Source: Chloroflexota bacterium
GTDB taxonomy: Bacteria > Chloroflexota > Dehalococcoidia > DSTF01 > JACRBR01
Length of the DNA: 46,218 nt
Reading direction: 5' to 3'
Assembly (NCBI GenBank): GCA_028872875.1
Contig: JAGWOC010000021.1
Coordinates: 1-46,218 of the forward strand
Part shown: one piece after another, positions 6,776-33,384 of the stretch
Numbering within the stretch: position 1 is the first letter of the stretch
How the letters are laid out: every line of letters begins with the position of its first letter
Made by a program: the position numbers and the translations under genes
The notes under the pieces: generated by a model
The model's database searches: none
Seen by the model: only the letters and a program-made list of their open reading frames with translations
Told to the model about the DNA's origin: nothing

Positions 6776-7628
6776 GTGCGAGCACCTCCCGGGGCTCTTC
6801 GTCTTCTTCGACGCTGCGGCCGGTCAGCTCCATGAACACCGTCTCCATCGTGATCTCATCGAGCGGGCGGCCGGCGGCGATCGTCCTGCGCAGCTCGACC
6901 GGCGTGCCCTCGGCGACGATGCGCCCGCCGGACAGGAAGGCGATGCGGTCACACAGCAGCTCCGCCTCCTCCATGTCGTGCGTGGTGAGCAGGATCGTCG
7001 CGTCGTGCTCCTCCCGCACCTCGCGCACGAACGACTGGACGTCGCGCTTGCTGCGCGGGTCGAGGCCGGTCGTCGGCTCGTCGAGCAGCATCAACACCGG
7101 CGATGTCAGCAGCGCGCGCGCGACGGCGACCTTCTGCTGCTGCCCGCGCGAAAGGTGGCTCATTGGCTCCAGCGCCTGTTCCCAGTCCAGTCCGAGGCGG
7201 GCGAGGACGCGCGGACTTTGCTCGCGCACGTCGCGCCCGGAGAGCCCGTACACCTTTCCGAAGAACAGCAGGTTCTCGAGCGCGTTCATGTTGCGGAAGA
7301 ACGACGGGTCGGCCGACACGCGGTTGATCAGGGCGCGGACGCGCATCGTGTCGCGCACGACGTCGAGCCCGAAGATGCGGACCTCGCCCGCGTCCGGCAG
7401 CAGCAGCGTGCTGATGATGCGGATCAGCGTCGACTTCCCCGAGCCGTTGGCGCCGATGACGCCGAAGATCTCCCGGCGCCGGATCTCGAACGAGACGTCA
7501 TCGACGACGCGCCGCGGCGGCTCGGGCGCGTGGCCGTCCCGGCGCCAGGGCAGCAGGCGCCCGTAGTCGAAGCCGCCGCCGAACGTCTTCGCGACGCCTG
7601 CCGCTCTCAGTGGCAACTCATCCAGCAT
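6768..7628 (-). CDS. ABC transporter ATP-binding protein (exporter)
   Basis: The start chosen is the ATG at 7628, because GGAGA lies six bases before it; the in-frame ATG at 7640 would include that site in the coding region. The 286-residue product has Walker A GANGSGKS, signature SRGQQQK, Walker B LMLLDEPTTGLD and a switch His in TTHDMEEAELL. The C-terminal extension (ITMETVFMELTGR) is typical of the CcmA/DrrA-like subgroup that pairs with ABC-2 permeases. It lies first in a two-gene operon and directly after an intrinsic terminator, so its transcription should depend on read-through of that terminator. Confidence 0.9.
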   Translation of the reverse strand: MLDELPLRAAGVAKTFGGGFDYGRLLPWRRDGHAPEPPRRVVDDVSFEIRRREIFGVIGANGSGKSTLIRIISTLLLPDAGEVRIFGLDVVRDTMRVRALINRVSADPSFFRNMNALENLLFFGKVYGLSGRDVREQSPRVLARLGLDWEQALEPMSHLSRGQQQKVAVARALLTSPVLMLLDEPTTGLDPRSKRDVQSFVREVREEHDATILLTTHDMEEAELLCDRIAFLSGGRIVAEGTPVELRRTIAAGRPLDEITMETVFMELTGRSVEEDEEPREVLAHG

Positions 7629-7666
7629 GCTGCTCTCCATCTTCGGCCCCGCCCGCCGGGGCCGAC

Positions 7667-7699
7667 AAAAAACCCACTGCGTCCCGTGCTCGCAGTGGG
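7667..7699 (-). terminator. Intrinsic terminator in the exporter leader (attenuator)
   Basis: On the minus strand a perfect 9-bp stem, CCCACTGCG / CGCAGTGGG (7699-7691 and 7681-7673), with a nine-base loop is followed by six T. It lies upstream of the ATPase start, inside the transcript that starts at about 7861, so it would stop transcription before the exporter genes. Its 5' arm overlaps the segment TCCACCCAC (7703-7695), which can pair instead with GTGGGTGGA at 7771-7763. Confidence 0.8.
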
Positions 7700-7729
7700 T
7701 GGATCCTGGCTCGCCGATCGAGGGCTACC

Positions 7730-7840
7730 TCACGTTTCAAGCCTCGTGCAGGGCGCACTGATTCCACCCACGTACGCGACGCCACCCGGCGCGACGCGCC
7801 CCAGGCGGAATGCGCTGTTGCTAGGGATGTCAGTTCTCAT
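7730..7840 (-). CDS. Putative 36-residue leader peptide of the ABC exporter
   Basis: The ATG at 7840 has AGGA five bases upstream and lies about 21 bases after the predicted transcription start. The ORF encodes 36 residues beginning MRTDIPSNSAFRLGR and ends at 7730, about 30 bases before the terminator stem. Codons 24-26 (GTG GGT GGA, Val-Gly-Gly) are the strand that can pair with the terminator region. This resembles leader peptides that sense ribosome stalling, such as BmrB ahead of bmrCD in Bacillus subtilis. There is no homology to that peptide. It may act only through its translation; an untranslated RNA switch is the alternative. Confidence 0.5.
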   Translation of the reverse strand: MRTDIPSNSAFRLGRVAPGGVAYVGGISAPCTRLET

Positions 7841-7867
7841 CAGCGTCCTGCGCCTTTCGTGCCCGCC

Positions 7868-7897
7868 ATGATACGGGTCGGCGCGAGCCGATGTCAA
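7868..7897 (-). promoter_or_regulatory. Sigma-70-type promoter of the ABC exporter operon
   Basis: On the minus strand a consensus -35 TTGACA (7897-7892) and a -10 TATCAT (7873-7868) are 18 bases apart. The expected start is near 7861, upstream of the leader ORF. It is one of the best promoter matches in the window. Confidence 0.65.
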
Positions 7898-7997: not shown

Positions 7998-9125
7998 CTA
8001 CTGGGTGAGCCGGACGAAGTGGATCGCGCTCGCCCCGTCGTACACGCCCGTGAGCGCGTTCACGGTCACCTCGGCGTTCACGAACGTGCCGGTGATGTCG
8101 CAGCTATTGCCGGTGCAGCCGCCGGCTCCGTATCCCTGCAGCCAGAACAGCGCGAAGGAGACGATCGTCACGGGCGACTTGCCATTCCCGAACCCGGTGA
8201 CGACAGGAATGACGATGACCCGGCGGCTGCACTGCGCGGGCGGGATCGTGTCCGGCGTCGGACAGGCGCCCGGCCCCGAGGTCCACGGGTTGCAGCTCGG
8301 GTTGAGGCTGTACTGTCCATAGGCATCGGGCGCCCCGAACACCTGCGCGAAGGTGCTGCAGCTCGCGCTCGTGTTGTTGAGCAGGTAATCGACGCCGGAC
8401 CTGGTGGCGCTGACTTTGTTGCCGGTCTCCGATGGGCAGACGTCGTAGGAGGGGCAGACTGGGCTGGTGGTGGCGCAGGTCGTCACGCCCTGCGCGCACA
8501 CGATGGACGCGCTGCCGAACTGGATTGTGTTCTGGTACGTGGGAGAGCCGTTGCCCAGGGTGTTGTCGAGCTGGATCGCCTGGAAGTTCCCGTTCAGCGG
8601 GTTGTTCGCATCGTACTTCAGCGTCGCTGTGGTCCCCGAGGCCGGCGGCGGATCGACCACGGCCCACGGCTTCAGGCCGCTCATGCCGCCGGGCGACGTC
8701 TTGATCGCGGCCGCCGCCGCGCCCACGTCCCTGGAGTTGACGCCGACGATGCGCATGAAGGTGAAGTTGTGATTGCGCGAGAGCGAGACGTGGACCGTGG
8801 GGTTGCCCGTGGGCGTCACCTCGACGTGGTCGAACGTCACCGTCATGTCGCTCGGGTCGATCTTGTTGTTGATCGCGTACGCCTGCGCCGCCGCCTGCGC
8901 CGGCCTGGTATCGGAGCAGTCCAAGGGGTTGGGGGTGCAGAGGTTCTGCGCCGCCGCGAGCGCGATCGCGTCGGCCGCGTTCTGCAGCGTCCGCTTGTCG
9001 TCGGCGTAGCTCCCGACGTCGACCGCCATGCCGGCCATGGCGAGGAGGATCGGCAAGAGAAGCGCCGCGAAGACGAGCACCTGGCCGCCCTCGCGAGCCC
9101 GTCGTGGCGTACCCAACCTGATCAT
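7998..9125 (-). CDS. TadG-like pseudopilus/Flp-locus protein (paralogue A)
   Basis: The ATG at 9125 follows a GAGGAGGG site. The 375-residue protein has an N-terminal membrane segment, GGQVLVFAALLLPILLAMAG, followed by AVDVGSYADDKRTLQNAADA, the hallmark of the putative Flp pilus-assembly TadE/G-like family. The rest is a long extracytoplasmic domain rich in Gly, Thr and Asn with at least ten Cys, several as spaced pairs (CTPNPLDC, CPSYDVC), which suggests disulphides. It follows the tadE-like gene by 124 bases. No TadA, TadB, TadC or prepilin gene is present here. A close paralogue lies divergently at 10200-11339. Confidence 0.75.
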   Translation of the reverse strand: MIRLGTPRRAREGGQVLVFAALLLPILLAMAGMAVDVGSYADDKRTLQNAADAIALAAAQNLCTPNPLDCSDTRPAQAAAQAYAINNKIDPSDMTVTFDHVEVTPTGNPTVHVSLSRNHNFTFMRIVGVNSRDVGAAAAAIKTSPGGMSGLKPWAVVDPPPASGTTATLKYDANNPLNGNFQAIQLDNTLGNGSPTYQNTIQFGSASIVCAQGVTTCATTSPVCPSYDVCPSETGNKVSATRSGVDYLLNNTSASCSTFAQVFGAPDAYGQYSLNPSCNPWTSGPGACPTPDTIPPAQCSRRVIVIPVVTGFGNGKSPVTIVSFALFWLQGYGAGGCTGNSCDITGTFVNAEVTVNALTGVYDGASAIHFVRLTQ

Positions 9126-9249: not shown

Positions 9250-9705
9250 CTACTCAATGCGCATCGTCGTCGAGGAGGTGACCGTCAGGTACCCGGGGAG
9301 CGAGCCGCCGCTGAAGAGCCCGATGATCGAACGCAGCGGCGTGATGTAGTGGTACTGGTACTGCGTCGTGACGGTCGCGCTCGCGCCGGAGACGCAGGTC
9401 GGATTGCAGTCGACTTTCACGCTCGCGTACGCCTGCTTCAGATTGCCCATGGTCCCGCACGCCTTGAGCACCACCGCGTTCGTCGTCTCCGAGTCACATT
9501 CGACGTACGCGCCGCTCGTGGGGCCGAGGTTGCCGATCGACGCGTAGCGCGCGGCCTCGCGCGCGGCCGAGCTCGTCGTGATGTAGGACTTGAGCCCCGA
9601 ACCGAAGTCGATGACGCCGAAGATCAGCAGGCACAGGAACGGCAAGATCAGAGCAAACTCGATGAGCCCCTGGGCCCGTTCTCCGCGGCGAGCGTGGCGC
9701 ACCAT
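9250..9705 (-). CDS. TadE-like protein
   Basis: The ATG at 9705 has GAGGAGA seven bases upstream; a longer frame to 10137 has no support. The 151-residue product starts with a short basic segment, then QGLIEFALILPFLCLLIFGV and the segment GSGLKSYITTSSAAREAARY, the classic TadE pattern (a conserved Glu at the start of the helix, then the AAREAAR motif). The remainder is a small extracytoplasmic domain with four Cys. TadE-like proteins are minor pseudopilins of Flp/Tad systems or stand-alone surface components. It is transcribed with the tadG-like gene at 7998-9125. Confidence 0.8.
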   Translation of the reverse strand: MVRHARRGERAQGLIEFALILPFLCLLIFGVIDFGSGLKSYITTSSAAREAARYASIGNLGPTSGAYVECDSETTNAVVLKACGTMGNLKQAYASVKVDCNPTCVSGASATVTTQYQYHYITPLRSIIGLFSGGSLPGYLTVTSSTTMRIE

Positions 9706-10199
9706 CGCTGATTCTCCTCGCCCCATCGTCAGATTGTGGACGTGTTCACGCCGGCCCCTGGCAAGCGCGGCTGTCGACCCACCGCAGCAGCGGCCCCCAA
9801 CCGCGTCGACGTTGCGCTCCCCGCCGGGTGACAGCCGATACGGGCTCCACTCCCGGCTCCCCGCTGTTAGTGTCGGCCGCGAGCAGGTTTTCATGAATGC
9901 CGCCCTCTGGAGGGTTCCCCATACTGCTGAACGCCTGGCCCCCGCGTTCGTTACCAGGCCAAGCTGCCGCGGCCACCGCCAGGCACAGTGCCCAGGCACG
10001 GGAGAGGGCAGAGCCCAACCTGTGATGCGGCCCCTGATCGAACCCGTGCGGGCTACCTTCAGCGCAGGTTCGCGGAGCCGATGATTGTAGTGTGGCCCCA
10101 CCGGCGACATGGGGGTGCTGGGGTGCGTCGCGCGCACCGACAGCCGGACATGAGCCGGGACGGGTGCTGCCGTCTCACATTGGGGGGTGAGGCACCAAC
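9706..10199. other. Divergent intergenic region between tadE-like and tadG-like genes
   Basis: About 490 bases with no convincing gene. On the minus strand a -10-like TACAAT lies at 10089-10084 without a good -35. If used, it would give a leader of about 370 bases before tadE. I looked for c-di-GMP, c-di-AMP and cobalamin riboswitch core motifs and saw none. A GGGGGGTGAG ribosome-binding site for the plus-strand gene lies at its right end. Confidence 0.4.
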
Positions 10200-11339
10200 A
10201 TGCCCAGCTCGCGGCGTCGGACGATTTCTCCCATGGCCTGGCGGCGGGTCGCGGCCGAGCGCGCGCAGGTCATCCTCTTCTCCGCGCTGATGCTCCCCGT
10301 GCTCCTGGGCATGACCGCCCTCGCCGTCGACGTCGGGAGCTACGCCGACGCCAAACGCACGCTCCAGAACGCGTCCGACGCGATCGCGCTCGCGGCGGGG
10401 CGCGACATGTGTACGCCCAACCCCGCGGACTGCTCCAATACGACGGCCGCGCTCGCGACGGCGAACAGCTACGCGTCGAAGAACGGCATCTCGGCCAACG
10501 CGATGACCGTCACCTTCCTCGGCGGCAACACCGCACCGGCGGTGCGCGTCAGCATCACGGAGTCTCATCGGTTCGCGTTCGCGCCCATCATCGGCATCAA
10601 CTCCAAGGATGTCACGGCTGCCGCGACAGCGGCGAAGCTCTCGCCGGGTGCGCTCAGTGGTCTCATGCCCTGGGCGATCACGCAGGCCACCGTCGACGCA
10701 TCAACTCCGGGCCAGCTCGTCACCATCAAACAGGGTGCCGGGGGTGGGACCACCGGCAACTACGGCGCCATCGACTACGACGGCACGGGCGCGAATGTCT
10801 ATCGCGACACCATCATGCACGGCAGTCAGACCACCGTCTGCGCGCAGGGCCAGCCGGGGTGCGACACGACCGGATGCCCCGGTCCCTTCCCGAGCCCCTG
10901 CGCCGAGAACGCGCCGAGCTGCACAGGCCCCCAGTGTACGTCTGAGCCCGGGAACAAGGTTGGCCCTACCGACCAGGGCGTCGCATACCGCCTGAGCCTG
11001 ACGAGTAGCGGCTGCGGCTCGTTCTCGACGACGTTCACGCTCCAGAACGGCGTCTACTCCGTCAACCCCGCGTGTAATCCCTGGGGCGCCGGGGCGTGCC
11101 CGGTGCCGGACGACGGGGCCACGCTCTGCAGCCGCCGGGTTGTTGTGATTCCGATCGTCGACCAGTTTGGCAACGGGCGAAAGCCCGTGACCATCCTTGG
11201 CTTCGCGATGTTCTACCTGGAAGGCAGCAGTAGCGGTGTCGTGTCCGGTGAGTTCGTGCGGGCCGACGTCAACGTCGCCGGTCTCGCAGGGGCGTACAAC
11301 GCCTCCTCGCTCATCACGTTCGTGCGCCTCGTCGCGTAG
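10200..11339 (+). CDS. TadG-like protein (paralogue B)
   Basis: The ATG at 10200 follows GGGGGGTGAG at about 8-10 bases. The 379-residue protein has the same plan as the minus-strand paralogue at 7998-9125: AQVILFSALMLPVLLGMTAL, then AVDVGSYADAKRTLQNASDA, MCTPNPADCSN, GINSKDVTAAATAAKLSPG and, near the C-terminus, CSRRVVVIPIVDQFGNG. The spacing of cysteines in the middle differs. It is probably a surface-exposed, membrane-anchored protein with disulphides. The two paralogues point away from each other around tadE, which suggests an old inverted duplication. Confidence 0.75.
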   Translation: MPSSRRRTISPMAWRRVAAERAQVILFSALMLPVLLGMTALAVDVGSYADAKRTLQNASDAIALAAGRDMCTPNPADCSNTTAALATANSYASKNGISANAMTVTFLGGNTAPAVRVSITESHRFAFAPIIGINSKDVTAAATAAKLSPGALSGLMPWAITQATVDASTPGQLVTIKQGAGGGTTGNYGAIDYDGTGANVYRDTIMHGSQTTVCAQGQPGCDTTGCPGPFPSPCAENAPSCTGPQCTSEPGNKVGPTDQGVAYRLSLTSSGCGSFSTTFTLQNGVYSVNPACNPWGAGACPVPDDGATLCSRRVVVIPIVDQFGNGRKPVTILGFAMFYLEGSSSGVVSGEFVRADVNVAGLAGAYNASSLITFVRLVA

Positions 11340-33286: not shown

Positions 33287-33384
33287 TGGCGGGAGTGCGA
33301 GGGAGTCGAACCCTCCCGGGACGGCGCAGGCCGCCCCGCAACGGTGTTGAAGACCGCGAGACCCACCGGGACCCATCCACTCCC
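33287..33384 (-). tRNA. selC: tRNA-Sec (anticodon UCA)
   Basis: On the minus strand the 98-base gene starts GGGAGTGG and ends CACTCCCG-CCA, with the CCA encoded. The anticodon loop is CTTCAAC (33352-33346), giving anticodon TCA at 33350-33348. A long variable arm (around GGCGGCCTGCGCCG) and a T-arm with GGTTCGACT are present. The acceptor plus T-arm length, the long extra arm and the UCA anticodon are diagnostic of selenocysteine tRNA. A TACCTT box lies six bases before the 5' end, so the primary transcript may begin at the mature 5' end. No selA, selB or selD is in the window. Confidence 0.92.

Follow-up and report, generated by a model that had tools for sequence, protein, structure and literature searches.

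A probable ribosome-mediated transcription attenuator ahead of an ABC-2 exporter operon, and a family of related leaders in Chloroflexota

Introduction

The question raised by this locus is whether the DNA ahead of an ABC-2 exporter operon in a chloroflexotal genome constitutes a genuine regulatory switch and, if so, which event would turn it on. Chloroflexota is a largely uncultured soil and subsurface phylum, and to our knowledge antibiotic-sensing leader attenuators have come mainly from a few Firmicutes and from mobile resistance genes. The window (the whole stretch of DNA analysed here, 46,218 nucleotides) is a contig of a 3.4-Mb genome, and the element is read on its minus strand. In an earlier note, the region had been described as an attenuation switch with two mutually exclusive pairings under a translated leader. 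The element is probably a ribosome-mediated transcription attenuator in which an early halt of leader translation turns the ABC-2 exporter on. The exporter would thus probably be switched on only when something stalls ribosomes, most likely an antibiotic.

Architecture of the leader region

The promoter, AGGA site, 36-codon leader, antiterminator strand, complement, 9-bp terminator and T6 tract claimed in the earlier note are all found on the minus strand where they had been placed (Table 1). The promoter scores 11/12 and is the best promoter-like site within 7 kb. Positions 7699–7695 are common to the antiterminator and terminator helices, and the terminator hairpin begins about 30 nt past the leader stop and hence outside the leader coding sequence. 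A simple terminator scan of the window did not find the hairpin at 7699–7673 because its loop exceeds 8 nt. Among Rfam covariance models run against the window, only tRNA-Sec matched and no leader or riboswitch family reached its gathering score; the leader peptide had no match among NCBIfam and Pfam profiles, and the window leader contains no run of cognate amino-acid codons. The tRNA-Sec gene is located at 33287–33384 (minus strand). Elsewhere in the window, two Tad/TadG-like pilus-assembly proteins encoded at 7998–9125 (minus strand) and 10200–11339 (plus strand) are 47% identical over 382 columns, and a TadE-like gene (9250–10137, minus strand) lies between these oppositely oriented genes.

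Table 1. Features of the leader region and of the downstream operon, in window positions
Feature	Position	Strand	Remarks
Promoter -35 hexamer TTGACA	7892–7897	-	TTGACA-type -35 in nearly all orthologous leaders
Promoter -10 hexamer TATCAT	7868–7873	-	18-nt spacer from -35
AGGA, Shine-Dalgarno-like site for leader ORF	7846–7849	-	
Leader ORF MRTDIPSNSAFRLGRVAPGGVAYVGGISAPCTRLET, then stop	7730–7840	-	36 codons; positions include the stop; ATG at 7840, TGA at 7732–7730
R-L-G-R, codons 12–15	7796–7807	-	Position of the R-x-R of relatives; degenerate in the genus of the window
Antiterminator strand GTGGGTGGA, codons 24–26	7763–7771	-	
Conserved core with elemental-pause pattern, codons 26–29	7754–7764	-	G-10 T-3 G-2 Y-1 G+1
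Block N-TRA-NN-TAR (here GTGAGGTAGC) enclosing leader stop TGA	7724–7733	-	19/21 window-clade leaders
Antiterminator 3′ strand TCCACCCAC	7695–7703	-	Exact complement of GTGGGTGGA
Intrinsic terminator hairpin, 9 bp, 9-nt loop	7673–7699	-	-17.5 kcal/mol alone
Terminator arms CCCACTGCG and CGCAGTGGG	7699–7691 and 7681–7673	-	
T6 tract	7667–7672	-	
ABC ATPase, DrrA-like, PF00005	6768–7640	-	Predicted regulated gene; start 7640 or 7628
ABC-2 permease, PF01061	5921–6775	-	Second operon gene

Folded alone, the whole leader gives a z of -1.07, which is not unusual; single-sequence energy is therefore not evidence, and the case must come from comparison. An ordinary terminator accompanied by a chance leader ORF and chance complementarity would agree with such unremarkable folding, and spurious ORFs do arise at high G+C. 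This explanation is nevertheless scarcely credible in view of the conservation and covariation within the clade and of the occurrence of the element in most genomes of the order, nearly always before the orthologous ATPase.

Conservation and covariation

Orthologous ATPases were taken from other genomes of the order and from named Dehalococcoidia/Chloroflexi MAGs. The 21 orthologous leaders of the window clade possess a promoter, a leader ORF kept in frame, the antiterminator pairing and a terminator. The order is a TTGACA-type promoter, the leader ORF, a GTGGG strand, a short conserved core, the stop and the terminator, the 5′ arm of which shares bases with the complement of the GTGGG strand. 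The first halves of the peptides differ, but near the end they agree on GG[MTI]S[AV], the stop following nine codons later. Pairs were counted in a 16-sequence alignment, in which 84% of the cells of the antiterminator helix are paired. In this helix, 8 cells have changed on both sides as compared with 3.5 in shuffles (1/500), and the covariation score of 0.196, as compared with 0.129 in shuffled alignments (0/500), falls sharply when the alignment is slid by one column. The terminator helix scores 0.337 against 0.150 shuffled. Compensated pairs are exemplified by L004, with GTGGGTCGG opposite CGACCCAC, and by L006 and L008, with GGGCCGG opposite CGGCCC; in L047, L061, L048 and L049, the strand appears by eye to be shifted four bases downstream with the pairing kept. 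At the level of sequence, the putative switch is beyond chance, as shown by conservation in the clade and compensatory changes in both helices. The covariation that the earlier note had proposed to look for in homologous leaders is thus present, and its mutually exclusive pairings under a translated leader before an ABC exporter are supported by the kept reading frame as well as by sequence conservation and covariation.

Searched with a covariance model of the element, 14 of the 18 genomes of the order contain one copy, which precedes the orthologous ATPase in nearly all cases; at class level, 24 of 294 genomes match at E ≤ 0.01, a few of the lowest-ranking only weakly. All strong copies precede the orthologous ATPase, with one exception. 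This copy (L263 in genome G011, E 4.5e-6) is a cassette with leader MITGTRRQRMAAPRIGNSGMSAPSRRWQR, ending at its stop, before an ABCB-type exporter (PF00664 plus PF00005) whose relatives are Sav1866, BmrA and P-glycoprotein. Locus L046/L271 also has the cassette, at a greater upstream distance.

The N-TRA-NN-TAR block (TGAGTTAGC-like) occurs in 19 of the 21 window-clade leaders (found in L002–L014, L045–L053, L061, L263 and L271) and in 6 of 64 leaders outside the window clade. Five bases past the leader stop it offers a second stop, in a different frame, and GGAGG often stands before it. The block might represent either an RNA motif or an overlapping mini-ORF of the start-X-stop type.

Conserved unpaired bases such as those of the block and the pause core could belong to a binding site, as would be expected if the element were a ligand- or protein-binding RNA and the ORF incidental. 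This reading is quite unlikely, given that no Rfam family matches and that the ORF itself is maintained: the leader frame is open in 21/21 window-clade loci (the other two frames in 2/21 and 11/21), the frame through the core is open in 64/64 other leaders, in which ORFs had been sought and other frames are often closed, and 12 of 13 order-level leaders have the stop exactly nine codons past the start of the core. The enrichment of R-x-R, described below, is likewise a signal at the level of the peptide.

The target operon and its orthologs

The window target consists of an ABC-2 permease (PF01061) plus a separate ATPase and is not of the ABCB type (PF00664). For the ATPase, the start at 7628 has a better ribosome site (GGAG) than that at 7640. 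Among 400 Chloroflexota genomes, 179 contain a single-copy ortholog of the permease; comparison of the permease with solved structures gave no match. Homologous leaders without ORF and pairing, which according to the earlier note would have spoken against the switch, were sought: the window-clade orthologs keep both, whereas the leader is absent from 11 orthologs of the ATPase operon in Actinobacteria-labelled MAGs. These leaderless orthologs (L054–L060, L062–L064 and L066) have permeases 64–69% identical and reside in MAGs labelled Actinobacteria/Acidimicrobiia. The operon seems to have been transferred there, its control then being lost or replaced.

A leader family across Chloroflexota

The window element belongs to a family of leaders that spans Chloroflexota, of which it represents one branch. 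In most upstream regions of permease-operon orthologs, a strong promoter is accompanied by a leader ORF and by one or two terminators, which across the phylum take the form CCGTGGGC...GCCCACGG-T5/6. Among 108 unique loci outside the window clade with at least 400 nt upstream, a leader was recognised in 63 and none in 45. For peptide statistics, 85 leader peptides in 52 clusters were gathered regardless of R-x-R; leader length in the family is about 20–70 codons. Outside the window clade, the antiterminator strand is the core ([GC]R[ST][VA]P[IT]S-like), whose codons, as a rule GTGCCCA, pair with the terminator arm CCGTGGGCAC, whereas in the window clade the antiterminator strand lies four codons upstream, in the VGG codons. 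Pairing between leader tail and terminator 5′ arm reaches p ≤ 0.05 in 19 of 62 loci, with about 3 expected from dinucleotide shuffles. As a search pattern across genomes, the exact core was not commoner than a reversed-pattern control and is useless alone.

Tandem CCGTGGGC-type terminators between leader and ATPase are seen in L074, L075, L079, L097, L100, L119 and L120. Such tandem arrangements are common in Anaerolineae-type loci, and the second terminator has no evident leader. In a Muiribacteriota-labelled MAG, the ortholog L085 is preceded by a terminator and the leader MRILNRNTCTFFRGKSVPTTLHLRILS, closed by its stop, with R-G-K and an SVP core; its occurrence outside Chloroflexota reflects either transfer or mis-binning.

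The conserved core and polymerase pausing

The bases of the core agree with the consensus of the bacterial elemental pause, G-10 T-3 G-2 Y-1 G+1, reportedly established by Larson et al. in 2014. In the window clade, G-10, T-3, G-2 and Y-1 are each present in 21/21 leaders and G+1 in 20/21; the other Chloroflexota leaders have G-10 in 53/59, Y-1 in 59/59 and G+1 in 54/59. Binomial probabilities against composition range from 5e-7 to 1e-22, uncorrected for relatedness, and outside the window clade the pairing also demands part of this conservation. The codon containing G-10 mostly encodes Gly, Cys, Arg or Ser, codons that share a middle G, so that a base rather than a residue is conserved. In the window, G-10 falls at 7764 and the RNA 3′ end at 7755. 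The core thus fits the pause consensus, and a pause would put the RNA end at 7755, just past the antiterminator strand. The existence of a consensus pause sequence has been described (PMC6336406), and pausing is needed for the synchrony of ribosome and polymerase at tlrB (PMC6851288).

The core could also act as peptide. Control would then run in the opposite direction: the S-A/V-P core would arrest the nascent chain, and the ribosome held on codons 26–30 would keep the exporter off until a signal relieved the arrest and turned it on. The core near the C-terminus is indeed the most conserved peptide segment, and a ribosome on it masks the antiterminator strand. However, the third core residue varies in the window clade (P, S, F, H) while the bases are fixed, so that the constraint on the core is largely on nucleotides; elsewhere, the core is conserved because it is itself the antiterminator strand. 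C-terminal arrest is therefore an unlikely account.

The R-x-R motif

The R/K-x-R/K motif is a ribosome stall motif for macrolides and ketolides, exemplified by Mef(E)L (MTASMRLR) and Erm(K)L (MTHAMRLRFPTLNQ) (PMC4335068); the tlrB leader stalls at RYR (PMC6851288), and ketolides in general stall ribosomes at R-x-R-type motifs (PMC8298421). Upstream of the core, R-x-R occurs in 29.4 weighted peptides as compared with 11.2 ± 2.4 in residue-shuffled ones (z about 8). Family-wide, occurrences of R[LVIMFT]R reach z = 12.4; RR is rarer than expected, and R-x-x-R is as frequent as expected. Within the window clade, R[LVIMFT]R is present in 5.0 of 13 clusters as compared with 1.1 expected (p = 0.001). 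The motif lies in the first half of the leader in the family, and at the position of the R-L-G-R of the window relatives bear RLR, RVR, RTR or RAR. By analogy with the characterized leaders, R-x-R in many relatives is probably a stall site for macrolides or ketolides. The window and two genus mates have no R-x-R, showing R-L-G-R, R-P-G-L and V-R-T-A-P instead; in the window leader, the motif has decayed.

Since the leaders hold about 10% Arg, and since an early stall would act on the RNA alike, an attenuator of arginine or general amino-acid starvation, in which scarce charged tRNA-Arg slows the ribosome at Arg codons and thereby turns the operon on, has to be considered. It is very unlikely. 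Enrichment is confined to R-x-R in which x is mostly hydrophobic, and RR is depleted; Arg is not clustered, unlike the cognate codons of his and trp leaders; the targets are exporters, ABC-F proteins, an rRNA methylase and GNAT proteins, not arginine genes; and the look of an amino-acid attenuator in this phylum is shown by a different leader (L345), which precedes a DAHP synthase gene.

Ribosome position and the choice of helix

In the mechanism of early halt and exporter induction, for which we infer leader translation, pausing, the direction of control and the identity of the inducer, RNA polymerase would start near 7861 and transcribe the leader ORF, probably pausing near 7755 while a ribosome loads and follows. 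A free-running ribosome in the last third of the leader would cover the antiterminator strand (codons 24–26), so that the terminator (7699–7667) could form and transcription would stop ahead of the ATPase. A ribosome stalled in the first half would leave the strand free to pair with the emerging 7703–7695; with the antiterminator formed, the terminator would be blocked and the exporter turned on.

This scheme was modelled by folding the finished leader with 31 nt masked as the ribosome footprint. In the window, the predicted probability of the terminator is 0.95 with no ribosome and 0.98–1.00 with the P-site at codons 20–34, while the antiterminator reaches 0.89–0.92 with the P-site at codons 8–14. 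In most relatives, the finished terminator still wins at equilibrium with a ribosome at R-x-R. Equilibrium masked folding, clear for the window but not for relatives, was thus dropped as family-wide proof, and as it fails to generalise, the choice must be kinetic. At the decision point, taken as the moment before the terminator 3′ arm is made, placing the ribosome 14 codons before the core gives window-clade leaders a predicted antiterminator probability of 0.63, which falls to 0.03 when the ribosome occupies the core; the other leaders give 0.62 for an early ribosome and 0.19 for one at the core. A ribosome at the stop codon leaves the strand unmasked in the window clade (antiterminator 0.56), so that the off state would have to rest on timing. 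That an early stall would turn the exporter on is the natural reading, favoured by the anatomy, the masking calculations and the R-x-R of relatives, and agrees with the direction suggested in the earlier note.

Other target genes

A second covariance model (R2) was built on 24 ABC-2 exporter leaders from outside the window clade. It has matches in 105 of 400 genomes, and in one family, which includes Ktedonobacteria, a genome may contain as many as five copies. Forty further copies were fetched and their downstream genes read. These encode MFS exporters, ABCB exporters, GNAT acetyltransferases, again ABC-2 ATPases, methyltransferases including a SpoU rRNA methylase, an APH-type kinase, and two ABC-F proteins (L313 and L322) that score 424 and 419 bits against a curated ribosomal-protection cut-off of 380. 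Leader-like attenuators with an SAP core also precede two genes that were identified by eye as RsgA-like ribosome-assembly GTPases (L323 and L340).

The R2 model is not fully specific and also finds attenuators of other kinds. At L341 (G440:C215:24381-24473), a Met-rich short ORF (MRISGMRMAPSAVCVSPG) and a terminator stand just before a methionyl-tRNA synthetase-like gene, a possible methionine attenuator. L345 (G037:C61:45779-45874), in a genome of the window's class, has the aromatic-rich leader MSALSSRIGQAYYWRFYFTGLPAAEAVAWPSN up to its stop and tandem terminators before the DAHP synthase gene and looks like a classical aromatic amino-acid attenuator. R2 matches alone were rejected as proof of a resistance regulon for this reason, and weight was given only to leaders with a [GCR]-x-[VMLA]-P core, in which most R2-found leaders end; L307/L314, L333 and L342 are borderline by this test. 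Against 40 relatives of the window, R2 matched one at E < 0.01, and neither R2 nor the model of the window-clade element (R1) detects the members of the other, so that the case for kinship of the two groups comes from the orthology of the gene, from the peptide core and from the pause pattern.

A broader reading would make this a phylum-wide cis antibiotic response, in which one cassette, composed of an R-x-R sensor, a pause site, an antiterminator core and a CCGTGGGC-type terminator, was copied before unrelated resistance gene families (ABC-2, ABCB, MFS, ABC-F, rRNA methylase, acetyltransferases and kinases, genomes of Ktedonobacteria having as many as five copies), each gene sensing stalled ribosomes for itself. 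The chances that this reading, with its cassette and its targets taken together, is right appear evenly balanced. If the Chloroflexota family is indeed conserved as such, attenuation would be an old chromosomal control of intrinsic resistance, and the R-x-R, core and terminator cassette would offer a sequence handle for resistance-type genes whose substrate is not assigned. The role of a widely conserved ABC-2 exporter would also become testable through its induction by, and perhaps protection from, ribosome-targeting compounds.

Comparison with known systems

In the earlier note, the switch had been called "of no class I recognise", which is too strong, as the element would work like the antibiotic-induced leader attenuators of erm(K), mef(E)/mel, msrD, tlrB and bmrB. 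A search of an open-access library for such leaders in Chloroflexi/Chloroflexota gave nothing on point; the class of mechanism is thus known, while the Chloroflexota leader family appears to be undescribed in the open-access literature. The window shows the order of promoter, ORF with ribosome site and resistance-type gene found in macrolide leader attenuators, as well as a mutually exclusive terminator and antiterminator, both helices of which covary. The R/K-x-R/K motif, present in many relatives, is absent from the window leader, which is not filed as a member.

Close parallels are offered by erm(K) and mef(E)/mel, in which macrolide-stalled ribosomes bring about transcription attenuation (PMC4335068) and which share with the window family a promoter, a short leader ORF, competing RNA structures, an intrinsic terminator and a resistance gene, and with many relatives of the window leader, though not with that leader itself, the R-x-R stall motif. 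The Chloroflexota leaders differ in being longer, in having a conserved C-terminal core that contains the antiterminator strand or lies next to it, in belonging to another phylum and in having an ABC-2 exporter as main target. In Bacillus subtilis, bmrB/bmrCD shows that ribosome-mediated attenuation can govern a multidrug ABC transporter, the signal being drugs that target the ribosome (PMC4191407), and, like the window, places a leader ORF before an ABC exporter. BmrCD, however, is an ABCB-type heterodimer and the terminator lies inside the leader ORF, whereas the window has an ABC-2 pair and a terminator after the leader stop; one copy of the window-clade cassette, L263, stands before a BmrA-like ABCB exporter and so has a target of the bmrCD type. 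Attenuation of the ABC-F genes msrD (PMC10314930) and vmlR (PMC9226507) is relieved by antibiotic-stalled ribosomes, and ABC-F targets also follow the Chloroflexota copies L313 and L322. The MsrDL peptide (MYLIFM) stalls at its own stop codon, and the stalled ribosome itself obstructs the terminator (PMC10314930). In trp and his attenuators, alternative helices are set by ribosome position, as proposed here, but the Chloroflexota family has no cognate codon run and its targets are resistance-type genes. Finally, tlrB (yxjB) of Bacillus subtilis combines an R-x-R stall with polymerase pausing for synchrony with the ribosome, as proposed here. In that system, the motif ends the leader, a NusG-dependent pause follows the motif and translation control is added (PMC6851288), whereas in the Chloroflexota family the pause-like core is within the ORF and R-x-R precedes it at some distance.
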